A stretch of DNA of 64,000 nucleotides from Thermoanaerobaculia bacterium (GTDB taxonomy: Bacteria; Acidobacteriota; Thermoanaerobaculia; Multivoradales; J023). Below, in pieces: positions 49,887-59,057 of this stretch. Position 1 is the stretch's first letter; each line of letters starts with the position of its first letter. The stretch is taken from positions 1 to 64,000 of the forward strand of contig JAUIJL010000014.1 in NCBI GenBank assembly GCA_030431255.1. Reading direction: 5' to 3'. A program made the position numbers and the translations under genes. The notes beneath the pieces were generated by a model. That model did not search any database and was not told the DNA's origin. It was given only the letters and a program-made list of their open reading frames with translations.

Positions 49887-49962
49887 GGGTCGTTAGCTCA
49901 GTTGGTAGAGCAGCGGACTTTTAATCCGCGGGTCGTAGGTTCGAGACCTACACGACCCACCA
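49887..49962 (+). tRNA. tRNA-Lys (anticodon TTT), CCA encoded
   Basis: GGGTCGTTAGCTCAGTTGGTAGAGCAGCGGACTTTTAATCCGCGGGTCGTAGGTTCGAGACCTACACGACCCACCA folds as a canonical cloverleaf. Confidence 0.97.
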
Positions 49963-50020: not shown

Positions 50021-50342
50021 TTCTGCGTTACAGTAAGCACATAGTAAGCAGATGGGAGCGATTCAAGGCGTAGGTAGTGGGGCGTTGTTCATCATCGCTT
50101 CCGACGTTTCAGCTCCTCACCCGCCCGCCTTAGGCTCCGACCGAAGCTCTTCTCAGAACGGAGGGCGTTCCGAGCCGCCGCAGCGATTCCATCTCCCGAA
50201 CACCTTTGCTCCAATACCGGCGCTCAACAGCGTCTCTAGCTCGAGAAAGCGACTGATCGGTCTGTAGAATCAGGGGTCGGTGCATCCTTCTTGATAGCCT
50301 GAGCGGCGAGGCAATTCCGCCTCCAAGTTCAGGAGATCAGAA

Positions 50343-50402
50343 ATGAATCTGCAGACGAATCTGAGATCTGGTGCGCAAGGCTTCATCGTGCCGACGGGTT
50401 AG
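50343..50402 (+). CDS. Candidate 19-aa micro-ORF A: MNLQTNLRSGAQGFIVPTG
   Basis: ATG preceded by AGGAG with short spacing; C-terminal GAQGxIVxTG shared with micro-ORF B. Confidence 0.5.
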   Translation: MNLQTNLRSGAQGFIVPTG

Positions 50403-50412
50403 CCCTTGGAGA

Positions 50413-50440
50413 GGCGGCAGGTGTCGGCATACCTGCCGCC
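50413..50440. promoter_or_regulatory. Hairpin immediately after micro-ORF A
   Basis: GGCGGCAGGT / ACCTGCCGCC perfect 10-bp stem, 8-nt loop, no T-run. Confidence 0.6.
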
Positions 50441-50522
50441 TGACGGTAGACCGCCTTTACATCATAGGGCTATGTCCGGATAGCAGGTGACCCCTTGCTG
50501 CCAACTGCGAAAGGAGACTCAG

Positions 50523-50582
50523 ATGAGGGTAGGGACAACCATGAAAACCGGGGCTCAGGGGGTTATCGTCGCGACCGGTTGA
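50523..50582 (+). CDS. Candidate 19-aa micro-ORF B: MRVGTTMKTGAQGVIVATG
   Basis: ATG preceded by AAGGAGA; same length and C-terminal pattern as micro-ORF A. Confidence 0.5.
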   Translation: MRVGTTMKTGAQGVIVATG

Positions 50583-51720
50583 TCGGTCCACTTGCCGGAC
50601 ATCGCATGGGAGGCGCCTCCTTCCAGCGCATCATGCTGATCTGCTTCCGAGCGGTCCGGATTTCCTCGGGAGTCTGGGGAAATCGAGAACGCCAAGTCCC
50701 GAGAATCTCCCAGAGCTCTTGGTTTGGCGAGATTCTTTCGAGGTAGCACTTGGTTTCTTCGACAAGAAGAGCATAGGCGGCACGGTCTTCAAAGAGCAGG
50801 TACATACCAGCGAGATCGAGGCTTGCCAGGGTGTATTCCTGGAATTCTTCGAGATCCCGCAGCCCATTGCGAGCCTTCCTGACCAGCCGTTCCCCTTGCT
50901 TGGTAAGTCCCAGATTGAAGGCAATCTTGCCCATATGCCAATTGACCTGCATCTTGGCGATAGATTTGGGTTGTCGACCCATCAGGCTTTTGGCTCGTTC
51001 CAAGTGCCGGTAGGCACGTTCTTGGGCAATCATCGAGGCTGAAGACTCAGAAAGGATCTTCCCGAGACCGTGCAAGGCAGCGATAAGAACTCGACGCCCG
51101 CGTCGGGATTTACGTTTGTCTACAACCAGCCGGACCGCTTCAGCAAGATCGACGAAGCCGTCGCCTGTTTCCAGCATCGTGTGCTTGGCGGCTCCGCGAA
51201 GAACAAGCGCCTCGGCACGAAGCAGCATCTCGATCTGAGTCGATCCTCCACACCGATCAAGCGCAGCCTGAGCCTTCTTGACTGCATCCGGATCGTTCCG
51301 AATAAAGAGCAGCCAGCCGTAGCGACAGTGGAGCTCCGTCAGCGTGGGCGAATCGATCCCGATTTCGGCAAGAGAATACGCGGTGGCGTATAGCTGGCTC
51401 GCCCGCTCGAATTCGCCGACTCTTCGAGCCACGGAAGCAGTAACAAAGCGAGCTCTCACCTGAAACGAACGTTTTTCTTCCTGGCTGCTGTAGCTTCCGT
51501 CTCTTCCGCGAACACCGATTCTTTGATCTGCCAGTGTGATCATGGGCTGTGCCATTTCCAGAGCCGGGCCAGGTCGATGCACGGCTTCGTCATCGATGCG
51601 ATCGAGAAAACGTTGAAGGAATGGGACGTTCCAATAGCTGTCATCGGCCAGGATCCGGTGCGGCCTCTTGACCGCTCTACCGACCAGCAGAGTTGTCCTT
51701 CGATAGGGGGTCGTTGCCAT
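50563..51720 (-). CDS. TPR-like alpha-helical repeat protein
   Basis: Helical-repeat pattern (ARRVGEFERASQLYATAYSLAEIGIDSPTLTELHCRYGWL; AYRHLERAKSLMG...KMQVNWHMGKIAFNLGL). Likely start MATTPYRRT at 51720. Confidence 0.65.
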   Translation of the reverse strand: MATTPYRRTTLLVGRAVKRPHRILADDSYWNVPFLQRFLDRIDDEAVHRPGPALEMAQPMITLADQRIGVRGRDGSYSSQEEKRSFQVRARFVTASVARRVGEFERASQLYATAYSLAEIGIDSPTLTELHCRYGWLLFIRNDPDAVKKAQAALDRCGGSTQIEMLLRAEALVLRGAAKHTMLETGDGFVDLAEAVRLVVDKRKSRRGRRVLIAALHGLGKILSESSASMIAQERAYRHLERAKSLMGRQPKSIAKMQVNWHMGKIAFNLGLTKQGERLVRKARNGLRDLEEFQEYTLASLDLAGMYLLFEDRAAYALLVEETKCYLERISPNQELWEILGTWRSRFPQTPEEIRTARKQISMMRWKEAPPMRCPASGPINRSRR

Positions 51721-51976
51721 TAGGTCACCAAAATGCTGCTCTGGATGCTGAAGAAGCCGGAAATCAAGTCGAGAATGATAATACAAAATGACAAGGAGAT
51801 CCCGATACGGTGAACTGACCCCTGATTTTGCGATCCGAGGGATCTTCAAGGTCGGCAGAAGGTACGGGAAATAGTGGTCCGGTTGTTGCCGAGTCCTAGA
51901 CTCCGCTCACCATCAACACATTGGGAGTCTGTGTTGAGCCACTTCCGCAGGCTCCCTATTTTTGACCCCTGGTGAG

Positions 51977-52582
51977 ATGAGCCACGAATTCCACCTTGCC
52001 GACTTCGCCACTGCCCCGACTGAGCTTGAGCTCGAACCAAGGCATCTGGAGCATTTGATCTCTGCCTTGCTGCGCGCCGAGAACCCGCGCTCCCTGCGCG
52101 TGCTCTTCTGGCTGCTGCTGCAAACGGTCGCAGCCAAGCCTGAGCTCCTGGCGAAACTGAACGAGGACTGGCTGCCTACAGAACCAGATCTCGCCCAGCT
52201 CCTGGAAGATGCAGGCAAGGACGGAACCTGGGCGGTTCTTTCGCTGGAAGGCTTGGAAGGACGGCTGGAACGGCTCTGGCAGCTCAGTGACGATGCGGGC
52301 CTGGCGAACCTCACCAGATCATCGGATCCCTGGGAAATGGTCTCCGTCGCGCCCATGGCCGCCCTCTACGCCGAGCGCCAACTCGATGAGCTCATTGCGG
52401 CAGTGGCCCAGGGGCGACAGTGGAAAGATCCTGCGGAGATCTTGAACCCGGACGGCGAGCAGGAATTCGATCTCGAAGCCATGATCGGCTTGGCAGAAGC
52501 ACGGATGGTGCGGACCGAGGGCGGGGAAGCGTTGAACCTGGTGGTTTTATGCCTGATGAATTATGCGGATCGGGTGAATTAG
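51977..52582 (+). CDS. Hypothetical helical protein
   Basis: ORF MSHEFHLADFATAPTELELEPRHLEHLISALLRAENPRSLRVLFWLLLQ... with plausible amino-acid composition; no family recognised. Confidence 0.5.
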   Translation: MSHEFHLADFATAPTELELEPRHLEHLISALLRAENPRSLRVLFWLLLQTVAAKPELLAKLNEDWLPTEPDLAQLLEDAGKDGTWAVLSLEGLEGRLERLWQLSDDAGLANLTRSSDPWEMVSVAPMAALYAERQLDELIAAVAQGRQWKDPAEILNPDGEQEFDLEAMIGLAEARMVRTEGGEALNLVVLCLMNYADRVN

Positions 52583-52835: not shown

Positions 52836-54224
52836 TTGGTTGGACTCTTCCAATCCCGAGTCCATGGCGATGCTCGCTGGATGTCCAGTCGGGAACGTCG
52901 TCGCTTCCTGACACCCCACCATCAGGGATCGGTTCTCGGCAAAGACCAACGGCTCAGCCTTGAAGACTCCTTCCGCAATCTCGTCTTGGTCGCGCCGACG
53001 GGATCGGGAAAGACCACGCGGTATGTGATCCCAAACGTCTTGCTCGCCCAAGGCTCGGTAGTGGTGACCGATCCATCGGGGGAGATTTTTGAGAAAACGT
53101 CCGGCCACCTGCACGATCGCGGATTCCGTATCGAGGTGTTGCAACCAGCCAAGCTGGAAGAGAGCCTCCAATTCAATCCCTTGCACTATTGGCAGACACC
53201 ACAACAACTGCGGCAGCTTTCCACAATCCTCGCCAAGGGTATCGCTGGGGCAAATAGTGATCCCTTCTGGACGACGTCGGCGATCAACGTGCTCTTCTTT
53301 GGTCTGGCGGCTATCACGAAAGTTGACGACAAGCGGCTCGTCCATCTCGCCAATCTTCGCCTGTTGCTGAATCATCTCGATGCCGAGAGCAAACGGGTGG
53401 AGCGCTTCATGGCGCGGTATCTCGGGACCAATAGCCACTCGACACTGTTCTCGGAATACCGGGCCTTTCAGCTCATGGACGGCCGTGTGAAGGCTTCAAT
53501 TCTCGCGACGGCAAGGGCAGCACTGGATCTCTGGTCGGATGAATCGGTGGCGAAACTGACGGCAGCGAACACGGTCGACTTGCATTCGTTGCGGAAGGAA
53601 CAGACAGCGCTGTACCTGATCGTCCCCGAGCATCAAGTCGGCTATTTCGGGCCACTCGCGAATCTCTTCTACGCCACCTGCTTCCAGATCTGTCTCGAAT
53701 CCGGTGACGATCCTCAAGACCTCCCGGTGTTCTTTCTCCTTGATGAATTCGGGAATCTCGGCTACGTCCATGACTTCGCGGCCATGATCACTACCCTGCG
53801 CAAGCGGCGTTGCTCGGTGAGTCTGATCATCCAAGAGTTGTCTCAGCTGCGAGCGGTCTACGGTGAAGACGGAGCACGAACGATCTTTTCTGGTGGCGCC
53901 GCGAACAAGCTCTTCTTCTCCGGTCTCGATCTGGAGACGGCTCAGTACGTGGAGCAGTCACTGGGCAAAAATACGGAATATGACACGACCTTCGGTGGCA
54001 TCGACGAAGCTTCGCGTACCCTGAGCGTGCCGCTGATGTATGCGGATCAGATCCGGCGGATGAGTCGAAACAAGGCGATCCTGATCTCGGGGCGGCAGAA
54101 GCCGGTGAGGTTTGAGGTGGGGGCGTATTTCCAGGCGGGGAAGTTGAGGGAGATGGCGGAGAAGGCGAGCTTTGTGATGGCGAGAGGGCAGAGTGGGGAA
54201 CCGGAGTTTCTGGATTTGGGCTGA
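52836..54224 (+). CDS. VirD4/TraG-type type IV secretion coupling protein (start uncertain)
   Basis: HGDARWMSSRERRRFLTPHHQGSVLGKD; LVLVAPTGSGKTTRYVIPNVL; VVTDPSGEIFEKTSGHL; VFFLLDEFGNLGYVHDFAAMITTLRKRRCSVSLIIQELSQL. Confidence 0.92.
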   Translation: MVGLFQSRVHGDARWMSSRERRRFLTPHHQGSVLGKDQRLSLEDSFRNLVLVAPTGSGKTTRYVIPNVLLAQGSVVVTDPSGEIFEKTSGHLHDRGFRIEVLQPAKLEESLQFNPLHYWQTPQQLRQLSTILAKGIAGANSDPFWTTSAINVLFFGLAAITKVDDKRLVHLANLRLLLNHLDAESKRVERFMARYLGTNSHSTLFSEYRAFQLMDGRVKASILATARAALDLWSDESVAKLTAANTVDLHSLRKEQTALYLIVPEHQVGYFGPLANLFYATCFQICLESGDDPQDLPVFFLLDEFGNLGYVHDFAAMITTLRKRRCSVSLIIQELSQLRAVYGEDGARTIFSGGAANKLFFSGLDLETAQYVEQSLGKNTEYDTTFGGIDEASRTLSVPLMYADQIRRMSRNKAILISGRQKPVRFEVGAYFQAGKLREMAEKASFVMARGQSGEPEFLDLG

Positions 54225-58664: not shown

Positions 58665-59057
58665 GGGGTGAGAATAAAAAGGGAAAAGTCTCCGAGTAGG
58701 TAAACGAAGCCAACGGCTCAGAGTCCCCAATATCGAAGAGACGCGACCCACCCTAACGACCCCTGAATCTCCCGCAAACCCTCTCGGCATCTGGGCTGCC
58801 GAAAACTCCTGCCAACCGGAAAAAAGTCGGGAAATTTAAGGCTGGTTTAGGAGAGCTTAAGTATTCACTAAGCGTTCGGGTGGAACCATCGGTTAGTCCA
58901 TGCCTTCCAAAGCAAGAAGCGTTTTCGTTTTGTTGATATGCCTGGTCCATGAGCCTGGTTGCAAGATAAAACCGCGTTTACGAATAGGGAGAAAGTGAAG
59001 ATGCCCTGGCACTTCTTGCTTTCTTCAAATTGTCCTGAGCCCCAAAATGTTTAGAGA

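Follow-up and report, generated by a model that had tools for sequence, protein, structure and literature searches.

Two 19-codon genes beside a TPR protein in an Acidobacteriota genome: candidate members of a family of short signalling peptides

Can two tandem open reading frames (ORFs) of only 19 codons be genes, and what might their products do? The question arose from an earlier note on the stretch of DNA analyzed here (the window, 64 kb of a 10.2-Mb genome), which reported two such ORFs, each behind a good Shine-Dalgarno sequence (SD), and considered their agreement in length, SD and C-terminus difficult to put down to chance. Both ORFs are indeed present, with AGGAG before each. That first reading had not included the TPR partner, the divergent protein of about 200 residues or the exported relatives that are described below. 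The module consists of the following features.

50257 to 50284, plus strand: 28-nt element, 59-86 nt before peptide 1, with AATCAGGGGTC as its core
50343 to 50402, plus strand: peptide gene 1, 19 codons, MNLQTNLRSGAQGFIVPTG and stop; SD AGGAG at 50331-50335
50412 to 50441, plus strand: perfect 11-bp hairpin, 9 nt past the peptide-1 stop
50523 to 50582, plus strand: peptide gene 2, 19 codons, MRVGTTMKTGAQGVIVATG and stop; SD AGGAG at 50512-50516; 20-nt overlap with the 3' end of the TPR gene
50563 to 51720, minus strand: 385-aa TPR protein without an HTH, putative peptide receptor; start at the ATG of 51720 or possibly at an upstream TTG, as far as 51849
51811 to 51838, minus strand: matching 28-nt element, 75% identical to the copy at 50257-50284, about 90-118 nt before the ATG of the TPR gene
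51977 to 52582, plus strand: 201-aa protein without a match in Pfam or NCBIfam, its gene diverging from that of the TPR protein

ORFs of exactly 19 codons that begin with ATG behind an SD of at least 5 nt occur three times in the 64-kb window, and two of these are peptides 1 and 2. Peptide 1 and the TPR gene are both preceded by the 28-nt element, in the same orientation relative to each gene; it may serve as an operator or represent a dispersed repeat. The 9-nt core of this AATCAGGGGTC-type element is present a third time in the window at 58758. An Rfam search returned nothing but a tRNA. The module is preceded by a tRNA gene (49887-49959) and followed by a gene for a conjugative coupling protein of the VirD4/TraG type (PF02534, E=4e-68; 52836-54224, plus strand), and this part of the window may belong to an integrated element.

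A tBLASTn-type search with one 19-mer against 60 relatives found no homologues, the query being too short. Altogether 33 distinct, gap-free 19-codon ORFs were collected from the genome of the window and three other genomes, with the consensus M-x-[VI]-x-[TS]-x-h-x-[AS]-G-x-x-[PGA]-x-h-x-P-x-G-stop. The N-terminal half is constant (xVxTxVxAG) and the C-terminal half ends in P-x-G, so that the family signature is [TS] at position 5, [AS]-G at 9-10 and P-x-G at 17-19; peptide 2, with A17, is the sole exception at that position among the 33. Conservation in this set is inflated at the positions that the search patterns required (T/S5, A/S/T9, G10, P17 and G19), but the same positions are conserved in ORFs located by TPR proximity and P-x-G alone. 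The shared C-terminus described for the window pair holds for both ORFs, while its GAQG is merely a local variant and not a family motif: the literal GAQG pattern is absent from every other short ORF of the 10.2-Mb genome. Agreement beyond chance is borne out by the same 19-codon architecture, found again at paralogous loci.

The proposal of a small peptide family is upheld by short ORFs of the same length with the same SD in relatives, which diverge with a synonymous bias (pS 0.41 and pN 0.05, and pS 0.44 and pN 0.15, in the two closest 19-mer pairs). Hairpins with a stem of at least 8 bp follow the stop in 15 of 26 19-codon ORFs, as compared to 3% of random sites (p=2e-11). A promoter-like element, CTAGACG-N16/17-CTATCTTCCA, has exactly four copies in 10.2 Mb, each upstream of a 19-codon ORF; it is absent upstream of both window ORFs. 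Judged by sequence, the window ORFs truly belong to a large family of tiny-peptide genes in Acidobacteriota that had not been described before.

The distribution of the family was assessed by pattern searches starting from the peptide. Three genomes from the taxonomic family of the window had 6, 6 and 7 matches to a 19-codon DNA pattern (19 matches at 18 sites, one site being counted twice), and the remaining 70 genomes of the order had no match; as a control, the reversed pattern gave two matches in total. A stricter, peptide-only pattern run over 85,488 named genomes returned 15 loci, 13 of them within three genomes, namely the Acidobacteriota MAGs OFTM223 and OFTM268 and 'bacterium Bpl_12'. 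Nearly all of these loci adjoin a TPR-type protein, recognized either by profile or from the sequence of the neighbouring ORF, with the neighbours of L143 and L146 judged by eye and L118 having merely a 182-aa TPR-like remnant. The other two matches, in Wallbacteria and Sporomusaceae, have no TPR neighbour and were set aside as chance or unexplained. The pattern GPx[ILM]DP[ND]G-stop, searched in 396 genomes of the phylum, matched seven times, always inside this order, and five of the seven matches adjoin TPR genes. L161 and L163 were likewise set aside as chance or unexplained; L161 (G000:C15:349268-349294) reads GPSIDPDG-stop, with no recognized SD-ORF or TPR gene within 1.5 kb. The 19-codon pattern had no match in viral contigs, nor did the window TPR protein in phage records.

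Nearly all of the 33 ORFs adjoin a TPR gene, which in the window is convergent with both 19-codon ORFs. Its 385-aa product is barely detected by Pfam (TPR_12, E=0.003), and has three clear paralogues in its genome; the one on contig C29 is adjoined by a convergent 19-codon ORF, MNVQTTVIAGLPGLIIPNG. A profile built from these four TPR proteins recovered a paralogous TPR family throughout the order, a single genome having as many as 19 matches. Among loci retrieved solely by TPR homology, SD-bearing small ORFs ending in h-(x)-P-x-G are numerous, with 27 in the 50 kb within 500 nt of a TPR gene versus 2 in 119 kb elsewhere (p=1e-12), and one of these two is itself a relative of that kind, exported and with several cores. 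Several TPR paralogues, including those of L028 and L068, have no recognizable peptide nearby. The leaderless ORFs near TPR genes encode exactly 19 residues, except for one of 14 residues (L083) and others of 28-90 residues (L080/L081, L077 and L084) that contain one or several cores each.

Peptide and TPR sequences also co-vary. Among 25 peptide-TPR pairs, distances over residues 11-19 were correlated with distances between the TPR proteins (Mantel r=0.53, p=0.0002). The coefficient was 0.51 without near-duplicates and 0.43 when partial receptors were also left out (p=0.0002), and permutation within genomes gave p values of 0.0002-0.0014. Residues 2-10, on the other hand, showed no or hardly any correlation (r=0.12, 0.07 and -0.04). 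This correlational pattern matches the one expected if the C-terminal half contacts the receptor whereas the N-terminal half does a shared job. Shared ancestry could account for part of the correlated divergence, although the N-terminal half has the same ancestry and shows no correlation.

A second recurrent neighbour is the divergently encoded 201-aa protein, which has six copies in the genome, each adjoining a 19-codon ORF. Five copies were already among the collected loci, and the sixth came from a homology search of the genome (contig C39 at 90.5 kb), where, as predicted, a 19-codon ORF (MTVKSQVQSGQMGGLTPIG) and a TPR gene lie beside it. In 14 loci of other genomes a second small helical family was found (stop-to-stop frames of 111-247 codons), and we suspect that it is related to the 201-aa protein. 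The idea that the peptides imitate a loop found in the 201-aa partner, 'PAE[IV]LxPDG', gained no support, as the presumed partner family elsewhere has 'SPN' or similar in place of P-x-G. Near the 19-codon ORFs of L120, L121, L122 and L123 there recurs a family of about 195 aa with 'TLEDVALLADxxDSLP', in which a W-x-HPAEVLDP[DE]G stretch resembles some peptide C-termini.

Sister families of the 19-mers consist of propeptides with signal-peptide-like N-termini and GPx[LIM]DP[ND]G-like cores, again encoded beside TPR proteins. Other families within the order have exported propeptides that contain a DP-x-G core, their signal peptides being called by a simple pattern. The propeptide genes are concentrated immediately 5' of the TPR gene (10 in 9.4 kb as against 2 in 63 kb, p=7e-8). 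The core lies at or near the C-terminal end and is sometimes present in several copies; the L077 and L084 peptides include tandem cores such as GLGIGPLIEPNG repeats. Multi-copy cores within one propeptide were noted in L077, L084, L079, L096 and L088, with five GPLIEPNG-like units in L084. Relatives with signal-peptide-like N-termini occur in the same order and some in the same genome as 19-mers, which themselves have no secretion signal. Searches of NCBIfam and Pfam gave no match for the propeptides tested, nor for the 201-aa partner. The genome of the window contains 13 SBP_bac_5 and six C39-peptidase matches; proteins of both kinds are common, and are also found in the four relatives of the taxonomic family that lack any 19-codon pattern match. 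Double-glycine-like cleavage at the [AS]G of residues 9-10 by a C39 exporter is suggestive only.

The TPR protein of the window was modelled with AF2 as an all-helical, TPR-like superhelix (pLDDT 88, pTM 0.85) made of helices without an HTH. Its best three fold matches in the PDB (Foldseek) are Rap of phage Phi3T with its pheromone, at a modest TM score of about 0.5; LGN, which scores alike, and other TPR proteins come next. The sequence profile matches TPR proteins generally, with Rap105 well down the list (E=1e-7). Most relatives of the window protein have TPR matches in Pfam, and the L027 protein has none. Some receptors carry additional modules. AraC-type HTH_18 (PF12833) lies above the Pfam cut-off in the 19-mer-linked TPR proteins of L120, L123, L124 and L125, and zf-HC2 is just over the cut-off in that of L082. 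An XRE-like N-terminus was seen by eye in the L077 and L084 proteins (HTH_3 E=0.05, sub-threshold); for most receptors the zf-HC2 and XRE assignments are readings of the sequence. In L080/L081, L143 and L146 separate XRE-HTH genes adjoin peptide-linked TPR genes, like split versions of the L077/L084 fusions.

Taken together, the analysis indicates that the window ORFs probably encode short signalling peptides acting on the adjacent TPR protein, in a manner similar to Rap-Phr/RRNPP systems and to leaderless peptide signals. The ligand would be the last 8-9 residues, binding the concave TPR surface and thereby switching the contact of the TPR protein with its output. For TPR proteins with a fused module this output would be DNA or a sigma factor, and for the window protein it may be the product of the divergent 201-aa gene. 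The peptide would perhaps be exported, with the N-terminal half serving export or processing, and its C-terminal ligand would return through an oligopeptide importer, for which the 13 SBP_bac_5 matches provide candidates, resulting in cell-cell or self-sensing.

The main alternative is that the 19-mer, a short linear motif, stays inside the cell as a micro-protein and either inhibits the TPR protein or serves as its cofactor, making the locus a regulatory switch and not a means of communication. We regard it as improbable though still deserving weight: the 19-mers have no secretion signal, their whole length is fixed at 19 residues with the N-terminal half conserved as well, and the peptide gene adjoins that of its presumed target. 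However, relatives of the same order, and some of the same genome, have a signal-peptide-like N-terminus and sometimes several cores, as fits an exported and processed signal, and leaderless peptides can act outside the cell as signals, as SIP/LCP does (PMC10518010).

The earlier note had offered a signal, a modified peptide or a leader peptide. The signal fits best because of the TPR neighbour, the co-variation of the C-terminal half with it and the exported multi-copy relatives, and the other two options are disfavoured. Precursors of modified peptides (RiPPs), with the TPR protein as regulator or scaffold, would share the shortness, a conserved N-terminal half resembling a recognition leader, the [AS]G junction at positions 9-10 and the tandem cores of L084. 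Yet no maturation enzyme recurs across the loci, where the recurrent neighbours are TPR proteins, small helical partner families and XRE-HTH proteins, and the cores have no recurrent Cys, Ser or Thr, which makes this origin very unlikely. Slightly fainter still is the prospect of a leader peptide with an attenuator hairpin controlling the TPR gene in cis. An SD-ORF followed by a strong hairpin, in several loci immediately preceding a co-oriented TPR gene, would suit this role, but ORF and TPR gene converge in the window, L027, L094, L120, L121, L123, L124 and L125, the constraint is on C-terminal amino-acid identity with no regulatory codon run, and the exported and multi-core relatives do not fit. 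Hardly any weight falls on a small toxin-antitoxin or bacteriocin-immunity pair: although small genes beside a larger partner, with many paralogues per genome and missing from some relatives, recall such systems, the peptides show no strong hydrophobicity or cationic charge and have a fixed P-x-G end, and their partners are TPR proteins, several with fused DNA-binding domains.

Beyond the signalling role proposed for the window, we consider evenly balanced the wider reading of an RRNPP-like superfamily of intracellular peptide signalling in a Gram-negative phylum. One TPR sensor would have been shuffled onto different outputs (none, AraC-HTH, XRE-HTH or zinc-finger anti-sigma), and peptides would have moved between exported multi-core propeptides and leaderless 19-mers, with several private channels per genome. 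If true, intracellular peptide communication would be extended to Gram-negatives, cognate pairs would be available for testing the evolution of peptide-receptor specificity, and gene callers and annotation libraries would be overlooking such a peptide layer. Acidobacteriota are abundant, little-understood bacteria of soils and sediments, and the family described here has several peptide/TPR pairs per genome.

Among known systems, Rap-Phr (RRNPPA, Bacillota) is similar in its HTH-less TPR protein of about 370-385 aa adjoining a tiny peptide gene and in having several paralogous pairs per genome. Rap with its pheromone gives the best PDB fold matches, at the modest TM score stated above and with LGN scoring alike. 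A core at the C-terminus, cores in several copies and short extensions at the C-terminal end are features of the exported propeptides of the Acidobacteriota relatives and are likewise described for Phr3T/Phr105 (PMC11343458). The differences are the phylum, the conserved P-x-G C-terminus, the leaderless 19-mers of fixed length, the divergent partner of about 200 aa and a window TPR protein without specific sequence homology to Rap beyond TPR. PlcR, NprR, Rgg and AimR (RRNPPA) resemble those related loci in which a TPR protein with an N-terminal DNA-binding domain adjoins the peptide gene; here, in contrast, the domain is an AraC-type HTH (PF12833) in L120, L123, L124 and L125 and zf-HC2 in L082, and is XRE-like in L077/L084 only. 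With respect to RRNPPA systems in general, the window protein is predicted by the AF2 model to form a TPR superhelix and the family loci have an adjacent small peptide or propeptide gene; a propeptide with a Sec signal is not seen in the window 19-mers, whereas relatives have signal-peptide-like N-termini. SIP/LCP-RopB of Firmicutes is also based on an ultra-short ORF without a secretion signal that adjoins the gene of a TPR-type receptor (PMC10518010). SIP, however, is a hydrophobic peptide of 8 aa, as opposed to the 19 aa found here, of which the N-terminal half is constant and the C-terminal half varies, and the putative receptor of the window has no HTH and lies outside the RopB/Rgg (XRE-TPR) clan. 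The literature found, mostly non-subscription, contained no RRNPPA systems beyond Bacillota and their mobile elements. The nearly constant TPR neighbour suggests that Gram-negative Acidobacteriota carry many private pairs of peptide signal and receptor like those known to date from Gram-positive bacteria.
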